Under the pieces are notes generated by a model that ran no database searches, was not told where the DNA came from, and saw only the letters and a list, made by a program, of their open reading frames with translations. The position numbers and the translations under genes were made by a program. 31,277 nt of DNA from a virus: the IMG/VR virus record IMGVR_UViG_3300044631_002201, positions 1 to 31,277 of that record. One strand, 5' to 3'. Below, piece after piece: positions 5,249-26,461 of this stretch. How positions within the stretch are numbered: position 1 is the stretch's first letter; every line of letters starts with the position of its first letter.

Positions 5249-5817
5249 CGCTCGCCCTCCGCCGCCAGCTCGAAGAGGGCCTCGCGGAGCATGTCCTTGA
5301 GGATCTCCACCTCTTCCGGGTCTAGGTGGGGGATTCGCTGCTTGGCTGCGCTGGCGGTCGCCAGGATGCGGGACTTTACCCGGCCAATGGTGTTGGCCCA
5401 GGCCCGCTCCACATCCTCGCGCTCCAGCAGCTGGCCTTCCTTCTGCTTGCGCTCCAGCTCCAGCAGGTTGGCCTGCTCGAATGCCTTGCGCTGCTGGCTG
5501 ATGGTGTAGGGCGGCAGCTCATCATCAGCCAGGGGCTCATCAGGCGGGCGCTGCGGTGGCGCGCTGGCGCGGGCGGTGTCATCGCGCACGCCGGGCTTGT
5601 CGCGCACCGCCTGGCGCTGATCGATGTTGGCCAGGTACTCATCCACCAGCAGGGCGGCCCGCACGCGCACCGGAGCGGCGCTGGCAGTGGAGCGCGGGAG
5701 CTTGCCTTGCTTGCAGAGCTTCTCCAGGTTCTGCCTGGTGCAGCTACGGCCGGTTTTGGCGCGGATCAGCTCGGAGCCCTTGCCAGCGCTCAGCAGTTGG
5801 TCGGTTGCAACCGTCAT
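5245..5817 (-). CDS. Terminase small subunit (Nu1-like), probable
   Basis: The 190-residue product is encoded directly before TerL, with ATGA overlap, where small terminase subunits lie. The N-terminus (GKGSELIRAKTGRSCTRQNLEKLCKQGKLP, about residues 13-42) looks like a winged-helix DNA-binding domain of the MerR/Nu1 type: a helix-turn-helix followed by a KLPR-like wing. The middle is Pro-rich and flexible. The C-terminal half is helical (ERKQKEGQLLEREDVERAWA), as in Nu1-like proteins that bind the large subunit. It would recognise packaging sites, probably those in the repeat-rich region just upstream. The ATG at 5817 lacks a clear Shine-Dalgarno sequence. Assignment is by position and fold pattern. 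Confidence 0.82.
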   Translation of the reverse strand: MTVATDQLLSAGKGSELIRAKTGRSCTRQNLEKLCKQGKLPRSTASAAPVRVRAALLVDEYLANIDQRQAVRDKPGVRDDTARASAPPQRPPDEPLADDELPPYTISQQRKAFEQANLLELERKQKEGQLLEREDVERAWANTIGRVKSRILATASAAKQRIPHLDPEEVEILKDMLREALFELAAEGER

Positions 5818-8049: not shown

Positions 8050-8436
8050 TCAAGCGCCGAGACGTGCGGCGAGTCGCTGCAGAGCAGTCTGAGGGCAGCA
8101 GCTGCTCTCCGCCTCGCTGCCGTCGGGCAGGTAGATCGCGTTGCGCTGGTACGGCTCCAGCGTGAGGGGCGGGCTGTAGCTGGGGATAGGCAGCGGCGGC
8201 ACCCACTCGCGGCGCCACCAGGCCACCACGGCGCCACTCAGCAGCACTGCACGCTGAGCCTCTCCAGGGTGCGCCTGTGGGTCGGTGCGGGGCAGCCAGT
8301 CGCCGAACGTGAACGGGCAGGGCCGCAGGGGCGCCGCTGCGGGGGCTGCAGGCGACGGGACGGGTGTGGGCACCGGCGGAGGGGTTGAGGCGCCTTCCTG
8401 GGCCACGGCGGCGCGCAGCTGCTGGAGGACGTTCAC
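8050..8436 (-). CDS. Hypothetical protein, 128 residues, with Pro/Ala linker
   Basis: No family is recognised. A short N-terminal helix (NVLQQLRAAVAQEG) is joined by a Pro/Ala-rich linker (about 18-38) to a small domain with FGDWLPRTDPQAHPGEAQRAVLL and AVVAWWRREWVPPLP. Two adjacent cysteines occur near residues 113-114. The start is GTG 8436, just past the short sequence ATGCCGTGA that ends the leader cassette, so an upstream two-codon ORF (ATG CCG TGA) overlaps the start. The nuclease gene follows after 3 bp, so the two are probably translated from one message. A longer frame on the same strand is a shadow with arginine/proline-rich translation. Confidence 0.55.
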   Translation of the reverse strand: MNVLQQLRAAVAQEGASTPPPVPTPVPSPAAPAAAPLRPCPFTFGDWLPRTDPQAHPGEAQRAVLLSGAVVAWWRREWVPPLPIPSYSPPLTLEPYQRNAIYLPDGSEAESSCCPQTALQRLAARLGA

Positions 8437-8485
8437 GGCATGGCGGCGGGTAGGGGCATCCTACCGGCAGATGCACCCATCAGCA
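8437..8485 (-). promoter_or_regulatory. Leader cassette G before the 8436 operon
   Basis: On the minus strand: GCTGATGGGTGCA (GGGTGCA at 8472-8478), the -10 box TAGGAT (8458-8463), a GTAGG/CCTAC hairpin overlapping the -10, then CCCGCCGCC and ATG at 8441. The 13-mer GCTGATGGGTGCA is shared exactly with the plus-strand cassette at 16426-16438. It is a compact member of the leader family, with the -10 only about 17 bp from the start codon, so the transcript would be almost leaderless. Confidence 0.45.
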
Positions 8486-8520
8486 CCAAACAACGGGATT
8501 TCGGAGGGTTGAAGTGGTTT

Positions 8521-8897
8521 TGGGACATTTGGGACATTTGGGACAGCGCTGTCCCAAAGCAGAAGCCGCATCAGCACTGGCAGGTTGCCCGTGTTTGGGA
8601 CTTTGGGACACCTCTAGGGACATTTCCATCCATACCCATGGGACTAGGTACTAATACTTAAATAAATAATAGAAAAGGTATTTTCTTAGGGGCTGTCCCA
8701 AAGTCCCAAAACCTGCCCAGATCCGTTGCGCCGCAGTCGATTTGCCCTGGGACACTTCTGTCCCAAACTGTCCCAAAAGTCCTAAAACGCTGCAGCCTGG
8801 CTCATGTGGGCACCCTCCCCAGCGCCTGAAACTGCAGTCAGGGACAGGCCTGCCGCTACATGGGACAGCAGGGCAGCAGCTTTGGGACGTGTCCCAA
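8521..8897. repeat. Iteron-like array of GGGACA motifs with AT-rich core, candidate replication origin
   Basis: Between the primase gene and the 8436 operon I count 17 copies of GGGAC or its complement in about 375 bp: 11 direct (8522, 8531, 8540, 8597, 8605, 8617, 8640, 8749, 8841, 8862, 8884) and 6 inverted (8551, 8695, 8703, 8760, 8770, 8891). Most extend to TTTGGGACA. The first three are tandem at 9-bp spacing. Positions 8537-8558 form a perfect 22-bp palindrome (TTTGGGACAGC and its complement), and 8881-8898 is a second inverted pair with a 2-bp spacer. An AT-rich stretch (8646-8687) lies in the middle. Iterons flanking an AT-rich segment next to a replication gene are typical of origins; P4 is an example. 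Confidence 0.6.
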
Positions 8898-8903
8898 AAG
8901 GGC

Positions 8904-8940
8904 GTGAGCTCAGCTCACACCCTCAGTTGAAATGAGGGTG
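8904..8940 (-). terminator. Tandem hairpins after the primase gene
   Basis: CACCCTCA at 8918-8925 pairs perfectly with TGAGGGTG at 8933-8940 across a 7-base loop, about 35 bp beyond the primase stop. GTGAGCT and AGCTCAC (8904-8918) form a second palindrome adjacent to it. No U-tract follows on the minus strand, so intrinsic termination is uncertain. The hairpins could instead insulate the origin from transcription. Confidence 0.4.
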
Positions 8941-8974
8941 GCCGGGATTTGCGGCCACGGTGCATCAGTGCGGC

Positions 8975-11512
8975 TCAGTCGCCAGGCGGCACCCACTCCA
9001 CGGCCTTGCCCTTGCGGATCACCTGCCCACAATCCGGGGTCTCGGCCACGACGGACAGCAGCCAGGTGCGCACCTCAGCGGCAGGGGTGCGACGCGCCGG
9101 CAAGCACCATGCTCTGATCTGGGACTGCGGGACCGGGCGGCTGCCGTGACTGCTGCGCCACTCGCGGCCCTTGTCGAGCAGCCGCTTAATTGCCCCACCT
9201 GCGCCTGTTCGCACCGGGCCGAGCACCTTGTCCCGCTCACGGGCGAAGAGGGCCGTAAAGATGATCGCGGCGCGGATCACGTCTTCAGGGATGGGGGTGT
9301 TCAGGCTCAGCCCTGCAGAGGCCTGCCGGATGGCGTGAATGGCCAGGGCAATGCGGAGGGTGGCGCCGCGCTGTTTGCCCCAGTACTGCCGGTCGGATGG
9401 ATCGCTGGCGGCGAACTTGAACGACTCCGCCTGCCTGACCCACTGCACCATCGTGGCCTTGGCATCCTCGGCCACGGTGATGATGATCGGCTCGCCGTCT
9501 TCGCCGATCGGCAGCTTCGATGCGGCCGCATCCACCTGCTTGTAGAGGTTGGTGATCGCGGGGGCAATCAGCACGGTTGAGTCCTGATAGTCGTAGGCCC
9601 ACTCGCCTAGGTCGAACATCAGGAAGCGGCTCCACAGTCCATCGGCGTCCGCCATGCCCTCATTGGCATCGGCGTCGGCTTTCCACAGGCCTTCGAGGCG
9701 TGCCGGCTGCAAGCTGCCGAACAGGGATACGGCAGGGTTGGGCACGAAGATCGAATCGCGCCCCACCCGGTCGGTGATGATCTGCTCTCCGGGGTAGAGG
9801 CTGAGCCACTTCGCCCGATCGCTGCGGTTCGGTGCGCGGCACAACTGGCTGAACCACCCAGCGAGCTCATCGTGCACGGCCAGAAGCCCCGGGTTGGATC
9901 CGTTGCTGAGGATCATCTCAATCCGCTCAAAGGTGGCATCGCTGACCAGCAGGTGCCGCAGCTCGGGCTGAGGGTTCTCTGCTAAGAACTGGGCCATGGG
10001 ATCACCACCGGCGCCACCTGACTCAGAGGCCGCAGCCTTCGCCTCGCGTTCCGCCTGGGCCCGGCGATGCTTCCAGTCCGAGAGGGCATCAGCGTGCCGC
10101 TTGCGTTCTTGCGCCTGCCACGGCTTGAACGCCTGCATGGTGGTCGGGCCGGAGGTTGGCGACTTGCCCGAGCTGGCGGTAGCGATGTTGGCACCCCATA
10201 GCACACAGGCCTCCTTCCATGCGTGGGTGGGCGTCATGGCCACCCTGGCCCGGTTGCCGATGACAGAGCACACGCTGCAGAGGATCGGCAGCAGGAAGCC
10301 GCAGGGCTTGAGGGTCTGCTCCTTGGCGTAAGTGTTGATGAAGCTGGCCAGGCCAGGCGGGAATGCCAGATCGATCGATGCCAGATCAGCGGCCGCGGCC
10401 ACGTCGCGGTAGTTGCGGATCTCAACCGCCAGCTCATGGCGTTCGATGTCGTCGCCCTCCTCATCCGGCTCCAACTGCCACGGCGGCAGCTCCACCGGCG
10501 CATCAGGCGGGATGAACTGCTCGCCGTCAAGTGGTGGGGTTGGCGGGTCAGGCTTCGGCTTGGGCTTGTCGATCACGAACAGCGAGCGCTCGCCGAAGCT
10601 GTCGTGATCTTCGGTGCGGACATAACCCCAGGTGCGGCCATCGTGGCCGGTGACCGTCTCGCCCTTTTTGCTGCAATCAGGGGCTGATTTCGTCTCGCCG
10701 TGGCAACACCAGACCGAATTGCCGTCCTGGTGAATGCTGCAGGCACCGGAGTGGTCGCGGCCGCACATCGGGCACGGTTGCCGCTGGCTGCTGTTACGCC
10801 AGGTGCCGGATGCGTTGCTGTAGCTGCGCGGGCCGCGTGTGACCTGAGGCGAGATTGAGCGTCGTGTTTTCGGCCGCAGTGGTCGATCGCCGCAGAAGAC
10901 GCCCTGCAGCAGCGCGAACCATTCAGCCGGCAGCGGCTGCGCATCGGCAGGTGGCCGGCCAGCCCAGGCGTACTGATCGTCGTTGTCGGTGAAGTGAGAT
11001 TCCTTGGTGTAGTGCTGGCCCAGCACCACCACCTGAGTGCCGTGCTTGGCAAAGACGGCAAACTCCTCGCCCTTGTCATCGGCCCCACCTTCGCCAATGC
11101 CGACCTTCACGGTCTTCCCGCCGGCGGCAAGGATGGCCTTCTGCTCAGCGGCGACGGTGTAGACCAGCTTCAGCCGGTCGCTGTTGCCGGTGCGCACGAT
11201 GCGCCAGGTGTCGGCTGTGTACGGCTCGCAGCCATGCTGCTGGCAGAACGCCGCGGCCCTCGGCCCGTCAATGTCGATGGCGATGTGGCCAGGGGCGGCG
11301 CCGATGTGCCAGCAAACGCATTCAGGCGCCGTGGTCTGTAGCTCGGCCACGGGCACGCCGGCATGGTTCTCCCAGCCGTCACCAACGAGTGGCCGTTTGT
11401 CAGGCGCGCCAGGGAGCAACGGCCCGAAACTGGCGAGCATCGGCAGGCGTTCCAGGCGCCAGCGATCGGGCCCATAGGGGCCTGCCGCAGCGGCGGCTTG
11501 AGGTGTCTGCAC
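8975..11512 (-). CDS. Replication protein: PrimPol domain, zinc ribbon and DUF3987 helicase-like domain
   Basis: The 845-residue protein has the order known from phage and plasmid primase-helicases. An N-terminal bifunctional primase-polymerase domain carries the acidic motif IAIDIDG (residues 78-83; Asp80 and Asp82). A zinc-binding segment follows, CPMCGRDHSGAC and CC (247-270). The DUF3987-like ATPase region has the P-loop-like ASSGKSP (446-452) and later LLAVHDELAGW as a Walker B-like segment. It would prime and unwind phage DNA. Translation probably begins at GTG 11512, 3 bp after the RHH stop, with only a weak AAGGCG site. Its 3' end abuts the iteron array, which supports a role as the origin-acting protein. 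Confidence 0.88.
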   Translation of the reverse strand: MQTPQAAAAAGPYGPDRWRLERLPMLASFGPLLPGAPDKRPLVGDGWENHAGVPVAELQTTAPECVCWHIGAAPGHIAIDIDGPRAAAFCQQHGCEPYTADTWRIVRTGNSDRLKLVYTVAAEQKAILAAGGKTVKVGIGEGGADDKGEEFAVFAKHGTQVVVLGQHYTKESHFTDNDDQYAWAGRPPADAQPLPAEWFALLQGVFCGDRPLRPKTRRSISPQVTRGPRSYSNASGTWRNSSQRQPCPMCGRDHSGACSIHQDGNSVWCCHGETKSAPDCSKKGETVTGHDGRTWGYVRTEDHDSFGERSLFVIDKPKPKPDPPTPPLDGEQFIPPDAPVELPPWQLEPDEEGDDIERHELAVEIRNYRDVAAAADLASIDLAFPPGLASFINTYAKEQTLKPCGFLLPILCSVCSVIGNRARVAMTPTHAWKEACVLWGANIATASSGKSPTSGPTTMQAFKPWQAQERKRHADALSDWKHRRAQAEREAKAAASESGGAGGDPMAQFLAENPQPELRHLLVSDATFERIEMILSNGSNPGLLAVHDELAGWFSQLCRAPNRSDRAKWLSLYPGEQIITDRVGRDSIFVPNPAVSLFGSLQPARLEGLWKADADANEGMADADGLWSRFLMFDLGEWAYDYQDSTVLIAPAITNLYKQVDAAASKLPIGEDGEPIIITVAEDAKATMVQWVRQAESFKFAASDPSDRQYWGKQRGATLRIALAIHAIRQASAGLSLNTPIPEDVIRAAIIFTALFARERDKVLGPVRTGAGGAIKRLLDKGREWRSSHGSRPVPQSQIRAWCLPARRTPAAEVRTWLLSVVAETPDCGQVIRKGKAVEWVPPGD

Positions 11513-11515
11513 GGT

Positions 11516-11683
11516 TCACGCCTTGGCGGCGAGGGCCTTGTCTGCCTGATCAATCAGCATGCGGACGGCCTGGGAGCGGTTGCCCACTCCTGGGGTGCCG
11601 GCTACCACCCGGTCTAGTGCTTGGATGTGAGACGGCCGCACCATGACATTCAGCGGGACGCTCAGCGCAGAGGGTTGAGGCAT
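11516..11683 (-). CDS. Ribbon-helix-helix DNA-binding protein (55 residues)
   Basis: The product reads as a minimal RHH repressor. A beta-strand segment (SALSVPLNVMVRPS) is followed by helix HIQALDRVVAG, a turn (TPGVGN), and helix RSQAVRMLIDQADKALAAK, with the N-cap NRSQAVR typical of the second helix in MetJ/Arc proteins. It lies 3 bp upstream of the primase gene, so it is co-translated with it. It is divergent from the GIY-YIG/helicase operon across only 34 bp. A 9-bp inverted repeat covers both start codons, so autoregulation of both directions is likely. It is too short to be found by a 60-residue ORF cutoff. Confidence 0.75.
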   Translation of the reverse strand: MPQPSALSVPLNVMVRPSHIQALDRVVAGTPGVGNRSQAVRMLIDQADKALAAKA

Positions 11684-11720
11684 GTAGTAGATTGGGGGGG
11701 TCTCTACAGAATACTACATG
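11681..11720. promoter_or_regulatory. Inverted-repeat operator covering both divergent start codons
   Basis: CATGTAGTA (11681-11689) and TACTACATG (11712-11720) are perfect inverted arms with a 22-bp centre. The left arm contains the minus-strand ATG of the RHH gene and the right arm the plus-strand ATG of the GIY-YIG-like gene. A G7 run (11694-11700) and a second TAG/CTA pair lie inside. RHH proteins bind short repeats as paired dimers, so the neighbouring RHH protein is the obvious candidate ligand. Binding here would block both starts. Confidence 0.5.
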
Positions 11721-11879
11721 GCAGCCGGTGCGACAGCCAAGCCCGCCAACCGCTTCTACGTGTACCTGTTTCTGCGCCACGATGGCACGCCCTACTACGT
11801 GGGCAAGGGGACCGGGCGCAGGCAATGGGATCCACAGGGATGGATCTATGTCTGTCCAGCAGATAGGGAGGCCGCCTGA
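11718..11879 (+). CDS. Minimal GIY-YIG-like protein (53 residues)
   Basis: The sequence RFYVYLFLRHDGTPYYVGKGTGRR (residues 12-35) matches the first two strands of the GIY-YIG nuclease fold: YVY stands for GIY and YVG for YIG, and the following GKGTGRR carries the conserved arginine region. After residue 35 the frame runs only to QWDPQGWIYVCPADREAA and stops. The helix and the metal-binding glutamate of a complete domain (about 90 residues) are therefore missing or reduced to the terminal ADRE. It ends in TGATG overlap with the SF2 helicase gene. It could be a truncated relic, kept for translational coupling, or a functional mini-domain. Confidence 0.6.
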   Translation: MAAGATAKPANRFYVYLFLRHDGTPYYVGKGTGRRQWDPQGWIYVCPADREAA

Positions 11880-15747: not shown

Positions 15748-15966
15748 ATGGGAACCTATGAGGTAGGGTACTGGGGCCATCCGCACACGCTGCTCCCTGA
15801 CGATGCCGACCACTGCCCGGGCCAGGCGGTGGGTGCCTTGCGTTCCAACGCAGAGCTCGGCCTCTCGCCTGTCACTGGACCCGTCGAGGTCTGCCGCTGG
15901 TTCCGGCTTTGTAAGGCTCAGGGCGGCAGCAAGCAACGAGCGGGTGGCTCCTATTCCGCGCCATGA
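15748..15966 (+). CDS. Hypothetical protein, 72 residues
   Basis: I do not recognise this product. In its favour: it has an AGAGGG Shine-Dalgarno sequence 8 bp before ATG 15748, ends in an ATGA overlap with the winged-helix gene, and uses GC-rich third positions like its neighbours. It contains two cysteines and a basic C-terminus (CRWFRLCKAQGGSKQ). An opposite-strand frame of 99 residues over the same bases has no convincing start context. The gene would be the first of the operon facing the RHH repressor. Confidence 0.42.
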   Translation: MGTYEVGYWGHPHTLLPDDADHCPGQAVGALRSNAELGLSPVTGPVEVCRWFRLCKAQGGSKQRAGGSYSAP

Positions 15967-16430
15967 TTGAACCCGCCTACCTGGCAGCACTGCGTCATCA
16001 GGTGCGCTGTGAACTGCTGCTGACGATGGTGCAGCTAGAGCAGCTGTGCCCTGGCTGGTGGGCTGACCTCAGCGAGATGGCCCAGCAACTAGGCACCGAT
16101 CGCGCATCCCTGAATCGGTCGCTGACCAAGCTGGAGGCGATGGGATTGATCAGGCGCGAGCGGATCAGTAACACCGGCGGGAACTGGGTTTGGTGGGTCA
16201 AGCGTTGCGAGGATGACCAGCCGTGTCCAGACGCCGAGCCGGCGTGGAGGCTGCGCGATCTTCAGCGCGGAAGAGTCATTCGCGTCACGATCCGCGGCAG
16301 GTGGCAATGGGCGGAGCGCCAGGGGATCCCTCGGGCGACGATGCAGAGCTTTCTTGGCGGCCACCAACGCACGATGAAAGGCCGCTGGCAGGTGGCAGGC
16401 AGCCCATGGGATGACGAATCTGGCTGCTGA
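15963..16430 (+). CDS. Winged helix-turn-helix regulator with second DNA-binding-like tail
   Basis: Residues 30-75 (WADLSEMAQQLGTDRASLNRSLTKLEAMGLIRRER, then GNWVWWVKR) form a MarR/GntR-type winged helix-turn-helix with recognition helix RASLNRSLTKLEA. The C-terminal part (IRGRWQWAERQGIPRATMQSFLGGHQRTMKGRWQVAG, about 105-145) looks like a second small helix-turn-helix of the kind found at the ends of homing nucleases. It probably binds DNA as a phage regulator. It overlaps the upstream gene by ATGA. Promoter cassette E overlaps its last codons and drives the next gene. Confidence 0.68.
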   Translation: MIEPAYLAALRHQVRCELLLTMVQLEQLCPGWWADLSEMAQQLGTDRASLNRSLTKLEAMGLIRRERISNTGGNWVWWVKRCEDDQPCPDAEPAWRLRDLQRGRVIRVTIRGRWQWAERQGIPRATMQSFLGGHQRTMKGRWQVAGSPWDDESGC

Positions 16431-18768: not shown

Positions 18769-19283
18769 GCACTGATTACAGAGCGTTGTGTGCCGAGCTA
18801 ATTGAAGATGTCTGTTATCTGATTGACTGCGTTGATCATGACTGCTGCGATCCCGTCGCCCTGATGGAGTGCCGCGAGCATCTATGGCAGACCCGCGCCG
18901 CCTTGGCCCAGCCCGAGCCGGAGGGGCCGAGCGTTGAGACGATGGCACAGATCGTCTACGAAAATGCCATGCTCGCAACTGCGCCTGAACACGCCAGGCC
19001 GCACTGGCCGAGCTGGAGTGATCTGCCCAACTCAGACGCTCGCATCCACTCGTTGAACACAGCTGAAATCATCCTCGCCCGCTGGGGCCGCCCCACCACC
19101 AAGCCGGTGCCCGTGGCGGAGCGGCTGCCGGGGCCGGAGGATTGCGATTCGCGCGGCTGGTGCTGGTATTGGCACCCCGGCGAAGAGTGCTGGGAGATGG
19201 TTCCGGTTGTGACTGGCACATTGGACGAATGGACCCACTGGATCCCCCACCACGCCCTGCCACTACCCACCCCAACGCCATGA
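18765..19283 (+). CDS. DUF551-like protein, 172 residues
   Basis: The C-terminal 65 residues match the DUF551 layout: start PVAERLPGPEDCDSRGWCWYW, middle ECWEMVPVV, end DEWTHWIPHHALPLPTPTP. DUF551 is a small phage domain of unknown function with a conserved 'THW-P' ending. The N-terminal part (YRALCAELIEDVCYLIDCVDHDCC) is acidic and helical, with cysteines. It overlaps the glycosyltransferase start by ATGA, so the two are probably translated together. Confidence 0.62.
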   Translation: MSTDYRALCAELIEDVCYLIDCVDHDCCDPVALMECREHLWQTRAALAQPEPEGPSVETMAQIVYENAMLATAPEHARPHWPSWSDLPNSDARIHSLNTAEIILARWGRPTTKPVPVAERLPGPEDCDSRGWCWYWHPGEECWEMVPVVTGTLDEWTHWIPHHALPLPTPTP

Positions 19284-21652
19284 CTCGCTGCATCGTCATT
19301 GGGTGGGACGCCCACCACAACTGCATCGGCCGGGCCCATCTGATCGCCCGTGCCGCCGCGCTGGCATTTTCTGAGGTCCAGCTGATCGCCTTCGGGTTCT
19401 CCCATCTAGGCCGTGAGGTGTGGCCGCCACTGCGAGGTGAGCCGATCACTGTGATCCCTGAGCCCAAAACCGTCTCAGCGCTGATTGATCGCTGCCGCCG
19501 CATCGCCGCGGCCACCGATGCAGACGTGGTGATCGCCTGCAAAGCCCGGCTGCCGTCAGTGCTGCTGGGCATCGCCATCGCTGAGCGCAACGGCGCCCGG
19601 CTGATCGTTGACATAGACGATCACGAGTTGGCGTTCATTGATCCGAACGATGCCCCGCTCTCGCCGCTGGCGCTGCAGCAGCAGTTCCCCGAGCGGCTCG
19701 GCGAGGCCCCTTACTCACCGTTTTGGACGCTAGCGGCACAGCAGCTTACTAAGGCCGCTGATCACATCATCACCTGCAACTCCGAGCTGCAGGCATTGCA
19801 CGGCGGGGAGATCATCGCCCACCTGCGCGACCTGGAGGCGTTCCAGTCGCCGCAGGCTGATCCGCCCGCTGAGCTGCTGGAGATCCGCCGCCGCTGCACC
19901 CCGTTGGTGATGTTCCTAGGCACGCCGCAGCGGCACAAGGGCCTCGACGTGATCGCCCAGTCCGTGGCCCGGGTGCCAGGTGCTGGCGCGGCATTCATCG
20001 GCCGCATTCCCGACCGAGGAATCATCAGCGACATCACCCGCGCAGCTGGCGATCAGGCCGCAATGATCGACAGCGTGGCATTCGCGGCTATGCCCGCCTG
20101 CCTCGCGCTGGCTGATGCGGCGGTGCTGCTGCAGGATCAGTCCCGCGAGGCCAGCCGGTATCAGCTGCCGGCCAAGGCCTGCGACGCGCTGACGGCCGGC
20201 ATCAGGCTGATCGCCACACCTACCCCGCCGCTGCAGATGCTGGCGGACTGGGGGTTTCGGGGGATTTCGTTTGTGGAGTCGCCCGCTGAACTGCCCGACG
20301 CGATCCGCCAGTTGCAGCCACTGAGCGCTTCCGATCGGGAGGTGAATCAGCGCCTCGCGCACCAGCACCTGTCCTATGCCTCTGGAGCTACCACCATGCG
20401 CCACCTCCTGTCCCAGCCCAGCCGCCGGGCGATCAGTTACGCCGCCAGATCATTGATCGGGCTGCCTGAGCCTGGTCGGCGGATTATCCTGATGCTCTGG
20501 AAGCAGAACGACGCTGGAGTGTTTGGCAGGCGGGTGGACATGGTGGCGAAATATTTGGCCAGCCGCGATGACGTGGACCAAGTGCTGTTGGTGGAGAAAC
20601 CGCTTAGCACGCTGGACCTGCGCAAGCTGGAGCAAAGCCAGAACCGTCACCACAGGCTGTTGCACCGCTACGCGCAGCGCAAAAAGATCGGGCTGCTGGA
20701 CAAAGGCAAGCTGGCCATCAGAACGCCGGTGATGCCTGCAGGGCTCAGCGTGGCTGAACAGGGCGACTTCATTGAGCGGTACTGCCAAGGGCTGGTGGAG
20801 CAGGCCCTGGCGCGTTTCCCCGGCGCCAGGGTGGGGCTCTGGATTTACCCGTACTATCGCCACGCCGAGCGGATCGCCGCAGCACTGCCCACGGACTACG
20901 TGATCGCCGACGTGGTAGACGATCACAGGGCATGGCCCAACACATCCGCCGAGCGGAAGACAGAGCTCACGGAGCACTACCGCGCCATCCTGGATCTGGC
21001 CGACATGGGCCTTTACAACTGCCGGCACACGCTGCAGAGCATCGGCAGACTCAGCCCCACGAGAGCGCAGGTGGTGGCCAATGGCGTGGATTTCACCGGC
21101 GCACCGGATGCGGCAGAGGTGGCTGACCTGCGGGAGCAGTTAGTAGCGCCCGGCAATTTCCGGGGGATCATCGGCTATGCCGGAAACCTGGAGTCGAAAC
21201 TGGACTGGCCGTTGGTGGAACACGTGGCAGCCAAAAACCCTGACGACCTGGTGCTGCTGATCGGCAGCACGCACGTGGCCACCCAGCTGCCACAGCGGCG
21301 GAACATTCGCTACGTGGGCCCGGTGCCCTATGACGAGCTGCGCGCCTACCTGGCGACGTTTGACGTGGCGATTATCCCGCACCTGAAAACGAATCTCACG
21401 GCGGCGATGAACCCGCTGAAATGCTGGGTGTACGCCACGCTGGGGATTCCGATCATCAGCACCGACATTCCCAACCTGCCGGAGGATCTGCCGCAGCTGA
21501 AAATCACGCGCAGTCAGGGCGGGTTTACGAAGAACGTCCGCAAGGCGCTGAATTCGTTGGACGTGATGAGCGCCGAAGAGATCGTCGAGATCATCCGCCG
21601 GCACAGCTGGGCCAGTCGCCTGGAGTCGGTGGTGGACTGGTTCCACTACTGA
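19280..21652 (+). CDS. Double glycosyltransferase (two GT-B/GT4-like modules), 790 residues
   Basis: Module 1 (about 1-390) has a Rossmann-like opening (RCIVIGWDAHHN), an acceptor half and a donor half beginning VMFLGTPQRHKGLD (about 208-221), with SRYQLPAKACDALTAG near 300. Module 2 (about 399-790) opens RRIILMLWKQNDAGVFGRR and continues GIIGYAGNLESKLDWPLV (about 628), IRYVGPVPYDELRAYL and NPLKCWVYATLGIPIISTDIP, the donor-site signature. The usual second glutamate of the EX7E motif is replaced (Val in module 2, Asp in module 1), so activity is not assured. No membrane segment is visible. A soluble two-module sugar transferase could modify host surface glycans, virion proteins or DNA bases. 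Confidence 0.82.
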   Translation: MTRCIVIGWDAHHNCIGRAHLIARAAALAFSEVQLIAFGFSHLGREVWPPLRGEPITVIPEPKTVSALIDRCRRIAAATDADVVIACKARLPSVLLGIAIAERNGARLIVDIDDHELAFIDPNDAPLSPLALQQQFPERLGEAPYSPFWTLAAQQLTKAADHIITCNSELQALHGGEIIAHLRDLEAFQSPQADPPAELLEIRRRCTPLVMFLGTPQRHKGLDVIAQSVARVPGAGAAFIGRIPDRGIISDITRAAGDQAAMIDSVAFAAMPACLALADAAVLLQDQSREASRYQLPAKACDALTAGIRLIATPTPPLQMLADWGFRGISFVESPAELPDAIRQLQPLSASDREVNQRLAHQHLSYASGATTMRHLLSQPSRRAISYAARSLIGLPEPGRRIILMLWKQNDAGVFGRRVDMVAKYLASRDDVDQVLLVEKPLSTLDLRKLEQSQNRHHRLLHRYAQRKKIGLLDKGKLAIRTPVMPAGLSVAEQGDFIERYCQGLVEQALARFPGARVGLWIYPYYRHAERIAAALPTDYVIADVVDDHRAWPNTSAERKTELTEHYRAILDLADMGLYNCRHTLQSIGRLSPTRAQVVANGVDFTGAPDAAEVADLREQLVAPGNFRGIIGYAGNLESKLDWPLVEHVAAKNPDDLVLLIGSTHVATQLPQRRNIRYVGPVPYDELRAYLATFDVAIIPHLKTNLTAAMNPLKCWVYATLGIPIISTDIPNLPEDLPQLKITRSQGGFTKNVRKALNSLDVMSAEEIVEIIRRHSWASRLESVVDWFHY

Positions 21653-25402: not shown

Positions 25403-26461
25403 GTGCCAGCCAGCTCCAACCAGTCCTGGTGGCTTGACAGCATCGGGCGCATACCTTTGCTCACACCAGCCGAAGAGATCGAACTCGGCACGGCCATCCA
25501 GCGGTGGCAGTCCCATCCCGACCCATGCCCGCCAGGCATTAGGCGCCGGGGCATGCGGGCCCGCGATCGGTTCGTCTCAGCGAATCTGCGGCTGGTGGTG
25601 GCGTACATCTCCCGCCGCAGCCGCCTGTTCGCCGGGCAGGATCGCGAGGATCTGATTCAAGCCGGGAACATGGCCCTGCTGACGGCAGCGGAGCGGTTTG
25701 ATCCGGCCAAGGGCTATCGGTTCTCCACATACGCCTGGTGGTGGATCCGGCAGGGGGTGAACCGTCATATTGACCAGTACAGCAGGGCGATCGCCATCCC
25801 CGGCAGCCACTGCCAGCATCTAGCGAAGCTGGAGGCGATCACCCGGCGGATAGAGCTTGAGCTGAACCGCACGCCAACGCAGGCGGAGATCGCCGCAGAG
25901 ATGGGCGTCAGCGTGAAGGTGCTGGAGCAGGTGGTTGAGAACGGCCGATCGGTCGCCAGCCTTGACCAGGTGGTGACGGATGACGGGCTGGAGCTGGGCA
26001 GCCTGTGCGCCACCTACGACCGCACGCCAGAGGACGAGGAAGAGCAGCGCGAACGGTGGCGGCAGGCGGAGCAGCTGCGGGGGCTGATCGCCAGGTTGGC
26101 GCCGCAGGATCAGCGGCTGCTGTCCCTGGCCTGGGGCCTCGACGGGGTGGAGGTGCCGCGGCCTGAGCTGGCCCAGCAGGAGGGCCTGAGCACACGGGCC
26201 TTGGAGGTGCGGCTGGAGCGGCTGCAGGCGGCGCTGGCGTCGCAGTCGGTGCAGTTGGTGCTGGTGGCGGTGGAACGGGGGACGGTGGAGCCGAGGGATC
26301 GGAGCAGGCGGCGCCGCGAGCGGCCTGATCAGCTGGTGCTGGTGCCGGTCGAAAGGGTGAAGCCCGCGTCACCGGCGCTGCGCAGGGTTGGGGGATTCCC
26401 TCGGAACTGGGTCTGTCTCGGCGATCGGCTGCGGCTGGCGGTCAGTGGTGGGAGTTGGTGA
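25403..26461 (+). CDS. Sigma-70 family RNA polymerase sigma factor
   Basis: Residues 11-35 (LDSIGRIPLLTPAEEIELGTAIQRW) are region 1.2 as in cyanobacterial group 1/2 sigma factors. Region 2 follows, with RDRFVSANLRLVVAYI (about 55-70), DREDLIQAGNMALLTAAERFDPAKGYRFSTYAWWWIRQGVNRHI (about 80-123), close to the housekeeping consensus. Region 3 (LNRTPTQAEIAAEMGV) is also clear. Region 4 (LIARLAPQDQRLLSLAWGL, then PELAQQEGLSTRALEVRLERLQAAL) is divergent in the -35-reading helix, and an 80-residue basic C-terminal extension follows. The start is probably GTG 25403. It would redirect host polymerase to phage promoters. Confidence 0.9.
   Translation: MPASSNQSWWLDSIGRIPLLTPAEEIELGTAIQRWQSHPDPCPPGIRRRGMRARDRFVSANLRLVVAYISRRSRLFAGQDREDLIQAGNMALLTAAERFDPAKGYRFSTYAWWWIRQGVNRHIDQYSRAIAIPGSHCQHLAKLEAITRRIELELNRTPTQAEIAAEMGVSVKVLEQVVENGRSVASLDQVVTDDGLELGSLCATYDRTPEDEEEQRERWRQAEQLRGLIARLAPQDQRLLSLAWGLDGVEVPRPELAQQEGLSTRALEVRLERLQAALASQSVQLVLVAVERGTVEPRDRSRRRRERPDQLVLVPVERVKPASPALRRVGGFPRNWVCLGDRLRLAVSGGSW

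Follow-up and report, generated by a model that had tools for sequence, protein, structure and literature searches.

The window is the whole stretch of DNA that was analysed, the 31,277-bp virus record IMGVR_UViG_3300044631_002201, which is incomplete and linear. It encodes a lambda-type portal, a GpA-like terminase, RusA, an SF2-type helicase, an Erf-like protein, an exonuclease and a sigma factor, and the genes switch strand at 11.5–11.9 kb. The large terminase is 73% identical to TerL of Synechococcus phage S-LBS1, a freshwater cyanosiphovirus from Lake Bourget (PMC6157547), which makes a freshwater picocyanobacterium the probable host. Among the plus-strand genes, an 836-aa open reading frame (19142–21652) has glycosyltransferase group 1 matches, and is 93–97% identical in some relatives and not found in others. 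The sigma factor (25403–26461, plus strand) is of the sigma-70 type, and its S-LBS1 counterpart is annotated as cyanobacterial RpoD-like. A 155-aa HTH protein (15963–16430, plus strand) has a weak match to phage replication-initiation profiles, and is 99–100% identical in five relatives with either of the two array types described below.

The region studied here has the following features.

8050–8436, minus strand: 128-aa gene flanking the array, co-oriented with the DUF3987 gene
8514–10488, both strands: exchange module (helicase half and array), replaced as one unit in type B relatives (see below), delimited by nucleotide identity
8518–8898, both orientations: iteron array, putative replication origin, with 17 GGGAC-core sites (consensus TTTGGGACA)
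8522–8544, plus strand: three tandem iterons at 9-bp spacing (starts 8522, 8531 and 8540), in the outer arm facing the 128-aa gene
8537–8558, both strands: perfect 22-bp palindrome TTTGGGACAGCGCTGTCCCAAA, equivalent to two head-to-head iterons
8594–8610, plus strand: inner iteron pair at 8-bp spacing, with its perfect inverted partner at 8694–8710
8646–8687, no strand: AT-rich core (81% AT), putative unwinding element at the dyad center, kept in relatives
8694–8710, minus strand: inner iteron pair of the opposite arm, a 17-nt perfect inverted match to 8594–8610
8749–8774, both strands: far-side outer arm, with one plus-strand and two minus-strand iterons
8841–8895, both strands: third cluster, adjoining the DUF3987 stop codon, with GGGACA, GGGACA and a head-to-head GGGACGTGTCCC
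8975–11512, minus strand: putative initiator gene (845 aa), with a primase-like half and a DUF3987 helicase (Pfam PF13148, E 2e-47)
8978–10488, minus strand: C-terminal half, a DUF3987 P-loop domain, modelled in structure predictions as an MCM-like AAA+ domain and a winged helix
10489–11512, minus strand: N-terminal primase-like half, swapped separately from the array

The array is located between the stop codon of the DUF3987 gene and the start of the 128-aa gene, and its nearest site is 80 bp past that stop codon. The original prediction had a divergent-style leader beside the array. The neighbor is instead the co-oriented 128-aa gene, and the divergent region of the record is at 11513–11878.

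Seventeen GGGAC/GTCCC words are found at 8522–8895, the number given in the original prediction, which expected one or two by chance. In 3,000 dinucleotide shuffles of the array stretch the mean is 1.0 word and the maximum is 6, and any other 377-bp stretch of the record has at most 3. Exact copies of TTTGGGACA occur nine times in the record, all of them inside the array, and the reversed pattern does not occur. The three tandem copies, the 22-bp palindrome and the AT-rich stretch in mid-array, which had also been pointed out, are all present as described. No other 42 bp of the record come close to the AT content of the AT-rich stretch, 81% as compared to 64% for the next separate one, and the stretch is enclosed by the 17-nt inverted pair. 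Of the 17 sites, ten form pairs around a center at 8651–8653, with mirrored spacings of 9, 11, 46, 8 and 8, 46, 11, 10 bp (p 0.016–0.036 against shuffled strands or gaps). A degenerate extra site (8779–8787) follows the outer arm, and is intact in most relatives. The inverted repeats in the array are short iteron pairs and the 22-bp palindrome, with no single long stem.

An exact search of IMG/VR for two tandem iterons finds 18 contigs, 15 of which have the full array in the same layout; the other three have an isolated group of sites only. Among 16 phages, 76 of the 85 iteron-core columns (89%) show no variation, as compared to 165 of 289 other columns (57%; p 5.5e-9), a difference that is partly due to ascertainment, as two of the sites served to find the contigs and the cores were defined on the record's own array. 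The AT-rich core is also conserved in the relatives.

Searches for known elements gave the following results. DnaA boxes occur in the record at the chance level, with none near the array. An Rfam search and a promoter/terminator scan of the array stretch have no matches, and there is no match by blastn between the array region and named phages. A cumulative GC-skew minimum had been expected at the array, but the minimum falls at 5461, in a record that is incomplete and linear and whose genes switch strand at 11.5–11.9 kb. The sole Pfam match of the initiator candidate is DUF3987, with no plasmid Rep family (Rep_3/RepA-type) detected. The array was thus not assigned to the classical iteron plasmid class, given this domain content and the chance-level DnaA boxes. 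The N-terminal half has no Pfam match, and is called primase-like on account of its position, of the primase domains that take its place in relatives, and of motifs read by eye.

Relatives of the DUF3987 protein were collected with a protein-based scan that is blind to the array, and further ones with a scan using the C-terminal half. They sort into three N-terminal halves and two C-terminal halves (types A and B), and five combinations are seen. The iteron type follows the helicase half alone across these five primase/helicase combinations, without exception in the 21 records where both parts are visible. In the 480 bp after the stop codon, C-terminal halves of type A have 12–14 TTGGGAC sites and no type-B sites, and those of type B have 7–10 type-B sites and no type-A sites. 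Most of the type A contigs came initially from the iteron search; the array-blind protein scans gave the same pairing.

The type B helicase half, found in six relatives, is about 44% identical to that of the record, and an array of a different iteron, GGGTGGAAT, is located at the same place. In three of these relatives (G016–G018), the GGGTGGAAT copies have a spacing of about 10 bp and flank an AT-rich core inside the shared flanks, and the GGGACA array is absent. Compared to the record, their C-terminal half is 44% identical, whereas the N-terminal half is 98%, the 128-aa gene 95–96% and RusA 89–97% identical. In G018, the exonuclease is 94% and the 155-aa HTH protein 99% identical, and the Erf-like protein is also within the range of 89–99%. 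Three other relatives (G002, G010 and G013) have an unrelated N-terminal half and a C-terminal half that is 95–97% identical, and the GGGACA array is retained. The second N-terminal half together with the second C-terminal half is followed by the second iteron (G020 and G021), as is a third N-terminal half (Prim-Pol and PriCT-2) together with the second C-terminal half (G019).

The original prediction had considered the array in relation to the primase. Relatives with the same primase half and the other helicase half indeed lack the GGGACA array, but a different iteron array is found at the same spot. Therefore, the likely partner of the array is the helicase half rather than the primase. The 128-aa gene is 95–96% identical in four type B records (G016, G017, G018 and G020), which argues against its product being the reader of the iterons.

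The edges of the exchanged segment are well defined at the nucleotide level. The identity between the record and type B is 97.9% at 10489–11579 and 95.6% at 8446–8513, with essentially none between. One edge (10488/10489) is in the interdomain linker and the other (8513/8514) is a few bp outside the outermost iteron. Identical edges divide another pair of relatives (L034 and L057), which have a different primase background. Passive joint transfer of an adjacent array and helicase half could in principle account for the pairing. However, the flank at 8446–8513 and the 128-aa gene are nearer to the array than the helicase domain is, yet they are unchanged, and linkage alone is thus a weak account. 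Judged from these alignments, the pairing of iteron type with helicase-half type is strict against a constant background. The comparison points to the C-terminal half as the probable seat of iteron specificity, at a resolution coarser than its winged helix. As a separate observation, in two type B relatives (L081/L085 in G016 and L082/L086 in G018) the alignment of the 489-aa helicase homologue is interrupted close to the C-terminus by about 100 bp of inserted sequence, within one open frame.

The same comparisons bear on the possibility that the array is an operator or enhancer of the minus-strand genes that follow it (the 128-aa gene, RusA, terminase and portal), at which a regulator or sigma factor of the phage would time late transcription. 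The array is just upstream of the 128-aa gene in the direction of that gene, and both a sigma factor and an HTH protein are encoded by the phage. On the other hand, no sigma-70-like promoter was found in 8400–9050, the immediately downstream genes hardly differ between array types, and the HTH protein is 99% identical in the type B phage G018 despite the different array. Moreover, 17 sites around an 81% AT core exceed the needs of an operator. We consider this function unlikely.

A packaging (pac/cos) or partition site is more unlikely still. The array precedes the terminase genes within one gene block, but it tracks the helicase half rather than the terminase. Type A arrays are retained with a large terminase that is only 30–31% identical in three relatives (G015, G013 and G002) and 49–71% identical in others. 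There is no ParA/ParB gene among the genes scanned.

A third iteron type is found in S-LBS1 (MG271909.1), the nearest cultured relative by terminase (73%). Its locus has the same organization: a primase-helicase gene points away from an SF2 helicase gene, and a 9-bp iteron array comes after the primase-helicase gene. In contrast to the record, the gene encodes a Prim-Pol domain and a VapE-like helicase half (PF05272, E 2e-63), and the iteron is AGGTTGGGCAG. The stop codon is directly followed by AGGTTGGGCAG/CTGCCTAACCT repeats, four of them in tandem at 9 bp, which belong to an array of GGTTGGGCA. A search for two tandem copies finds 35 IMG/VR contigs, 26 of which have arrays of at least four sites. 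A VapE-type gene ends 4–31 bp before the array in 21 of these 26 and overlaps the array in two; for the other three it was not found, two of these arrays being near the end of the available DNA. No DUF3987 gene was found near any of the 26 arrays. The VapE halves are 29–98% identical to one another. The S-LBS1 record ends with a 127-bp exact repeat (34261–34387, again at 34515–34641) inside the iteron array (34261–34641). This repeat may be an assembly overlap, and the true copy number of the S-LBS1 array is therefore uncertain. A search of the S-LBS1 report (PMC6157547) finds no mention of a replication origin or of repeats.

The array could also be an origin that is read by another protein (a host factor, the 489-aa helicase or the 155-aa HTH protein), with the helicase half merely co-traveling. 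Physical adjacency would permit such co-transfer, and the 155-aa protein has its weak match to 'replication initiation' profiles of phages. However, this protein keeps 99% identity between iteron types, the identity of the 489-aa helicase ranges from 59 to 97% within type A with the iteron unchanged, and there is no excess of DnaA boxes. In addition, the iteron switches with the helicase type in three cases, one of them a different helicase family. Another reader is therefore improbable.

The explanation that we strongly favor is that the array is a replication origin and that its iterons are recognized by the DUF3987 protein through its C-terminal half. The helicase-half/iteron pairing in natural exchanges is the chief evidence; together with the conservation and the AT-rich dyad core, it argues for the origin that was originally predicted here. 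The array is real and conserved, and probably functional in this role. The C-terminal half is modelled as an AAA+ domain (mean pLDDT 66). MCM helicases give the best structural matches to this model, with Z scores of up to 11.6 (264 residues at an rmsd of 5.2), although the MCM match in Foldseek has an E-value that is not significant. SCCmec Cch (5dgk) is among the first Foldseek rows, also without significance (E 0.6). The last 86 residues are modelled as a winged helix, the domain itself being the last about 75 residues, with a pLDDT of 81 and Z scores of 6–8 to winged-helix domains. A search of PDB sequences with the DUF3987 protein has no match, and both folds are assigned from the models only. 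Their likeness to MCM and Cch does not prove function.

In the proposed mechanism, copies of the DUF3987 protein would bind the TTTGGGACA iterons through the C-terminal winged helix of the helicase half. Once both dyad arms are occupied, the helicase would be assembled at each flank of the AT-rich core (8646–8687), which would then melt. The MCM-like AAA+ ring would be loaded and unwind outwards, and primers would be synthesized by the N-terminal primase-like half. We infer the iteron binding, core melting, helicase loading and bidirectional start by analogy with SaPI, SCCmec and pRN1. The helicase half and the array would constitute one specificity cassette that is swapped as a unit, with the primase half swapped separately.

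Similar arrangements are known in other mobile elements. In staphylococci, the C-terminal domain of SaPI Rep and SCCmec Cch2 binds short iterons directly downstream of its own gene (PMC7581432). The phage locus shares with these systems a putative initiator helicase, repeats directly downstream of its gene, and a primase as a fused or neighboring domain; the related SCCmec helicase Cch is also among the first, non-significant structural matches noted above. In comparison, the phage helicase is a DUF3987 protein (PF13148), which is not described for SaPI or SCC (PMC7581432), the iterons are different, and the array is larger (17 putative sites in two arms and a third cluster). The origin of plasmid pRN1 was mapped experimentally directly 3′ of the ORF904 gene for a primase (AEP)-helicase-winged-helix protein (PMC4234260), the same position as that of the phage array. 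However, pRN1 has a 100-nt stem-loop and an SF3 helicase, with no iterons, whereas the phage has iterons around an AT-rich core.

DUF3987 is a widespread mobile-element family of unknown function. In Kazlauskas et al. 2018 (PMC5862659), its members are predicted helicases, with a winged helix as a possible means of origin recognition, and the primases of mobile elements with a DUF3987 helicase and winged helix have the same protein layout as the phage protein. The relevant passages name no iteron or origin sequence. No DUF3987 or VapE origin was found named in a literature search that covered few subscription journals, and the papers listed for TTTGGGACA are unrelated. The motif had been proposed to be new. 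Iterons directly 3′ of an initiator helicase gene are already known, but the motif and its DUF3987 partner are unreported in the searchable literature. The DUF3987 and VapE iterons thus appear to be undescribed. The new parts would be the DUF3987 and VapE partners, together with the natural exchange that, on the present alignments, assigns specificity to the helicase half. The locus supplies candidate cognate DNA for DUF3987 and natural domain exchanges that point to the helicase half for origin choice, which brings the DUF3987 prediction within reach of a direct test needing two protein halves and two short DNA probes. The CyRepA Rep proteins of cyanobacteria were rejected as relatives, as they are described with DUF3854/DEXDc domains rather than DUF3987.

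One rule may hold for several mobile-element helicase families (the two DUF3987 types, VapE, and the SaPI/SCC Reps). The origin would be a dyad of iterons of about 9 bp directly behind the initiator helicase gene, and the helicase, winged helix and iterons would move as one replication-specificity cassette, freely joined to unrelated primase halves, perhaps letting coexisting phages avoid mutual replication incompatibility. This generalization is tentative, and we place it slightly below an even prospect. If it is true, the helicase gene alone could suffice to predict the origin of many phages and elements. Candidate origins are given here for freshwater cyanobacterial phages, VapE-type phages and many Bacteroidales elements.

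When genomes were scanned with the helicase half of this family, no relative was found. No obvious array follows the DUF3987 stop codon in cyanobacterial plasmid genes and in phages CASP1, DSL-LC05 and MMP7, and an array after DUF3987 is thus not universal. A generic 8-mer repeat score over the first 300 bp after distant DUF3987 stop codons is too blunt for short 3+3 dyads. Distant DUF3987 genes nevertheless often carry dyads of repeats of about 9 bp right after the stop codon, as in gut phages (L062, L063, L207 and L208), a Streptococcus prophage (L205), a Bartonella plasmid (L222) and many Bacteroidales loci. By an inverted-repeat score over the first 300 bp after the stop codon, 43 of 73 Bacteroidales loci are in the top 5% of their own controls, a count over related loci that are not independent. 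The same score missed the array of the record, the arms of which are interrupted. The first 70 bp past the DUF3987 stop codon in Bacteroidales loci (L125–L204) often have a 3+3 dyad of 9-bp repeats, followed by a co-oriented gene. The sequence of this dyad differs by locus, for example TGTCGGTTT, GCACTTTC, GCAGTTTC and GCACATTTTCGCAAC. Long inverted repeats with the common part GCTTGCGCG are located directly after DUF3987 in a Rhodovastum plasmid with a phage capsid-type gene (L219, 4503–4640) and in a viral contig (L060, 1971–2130).
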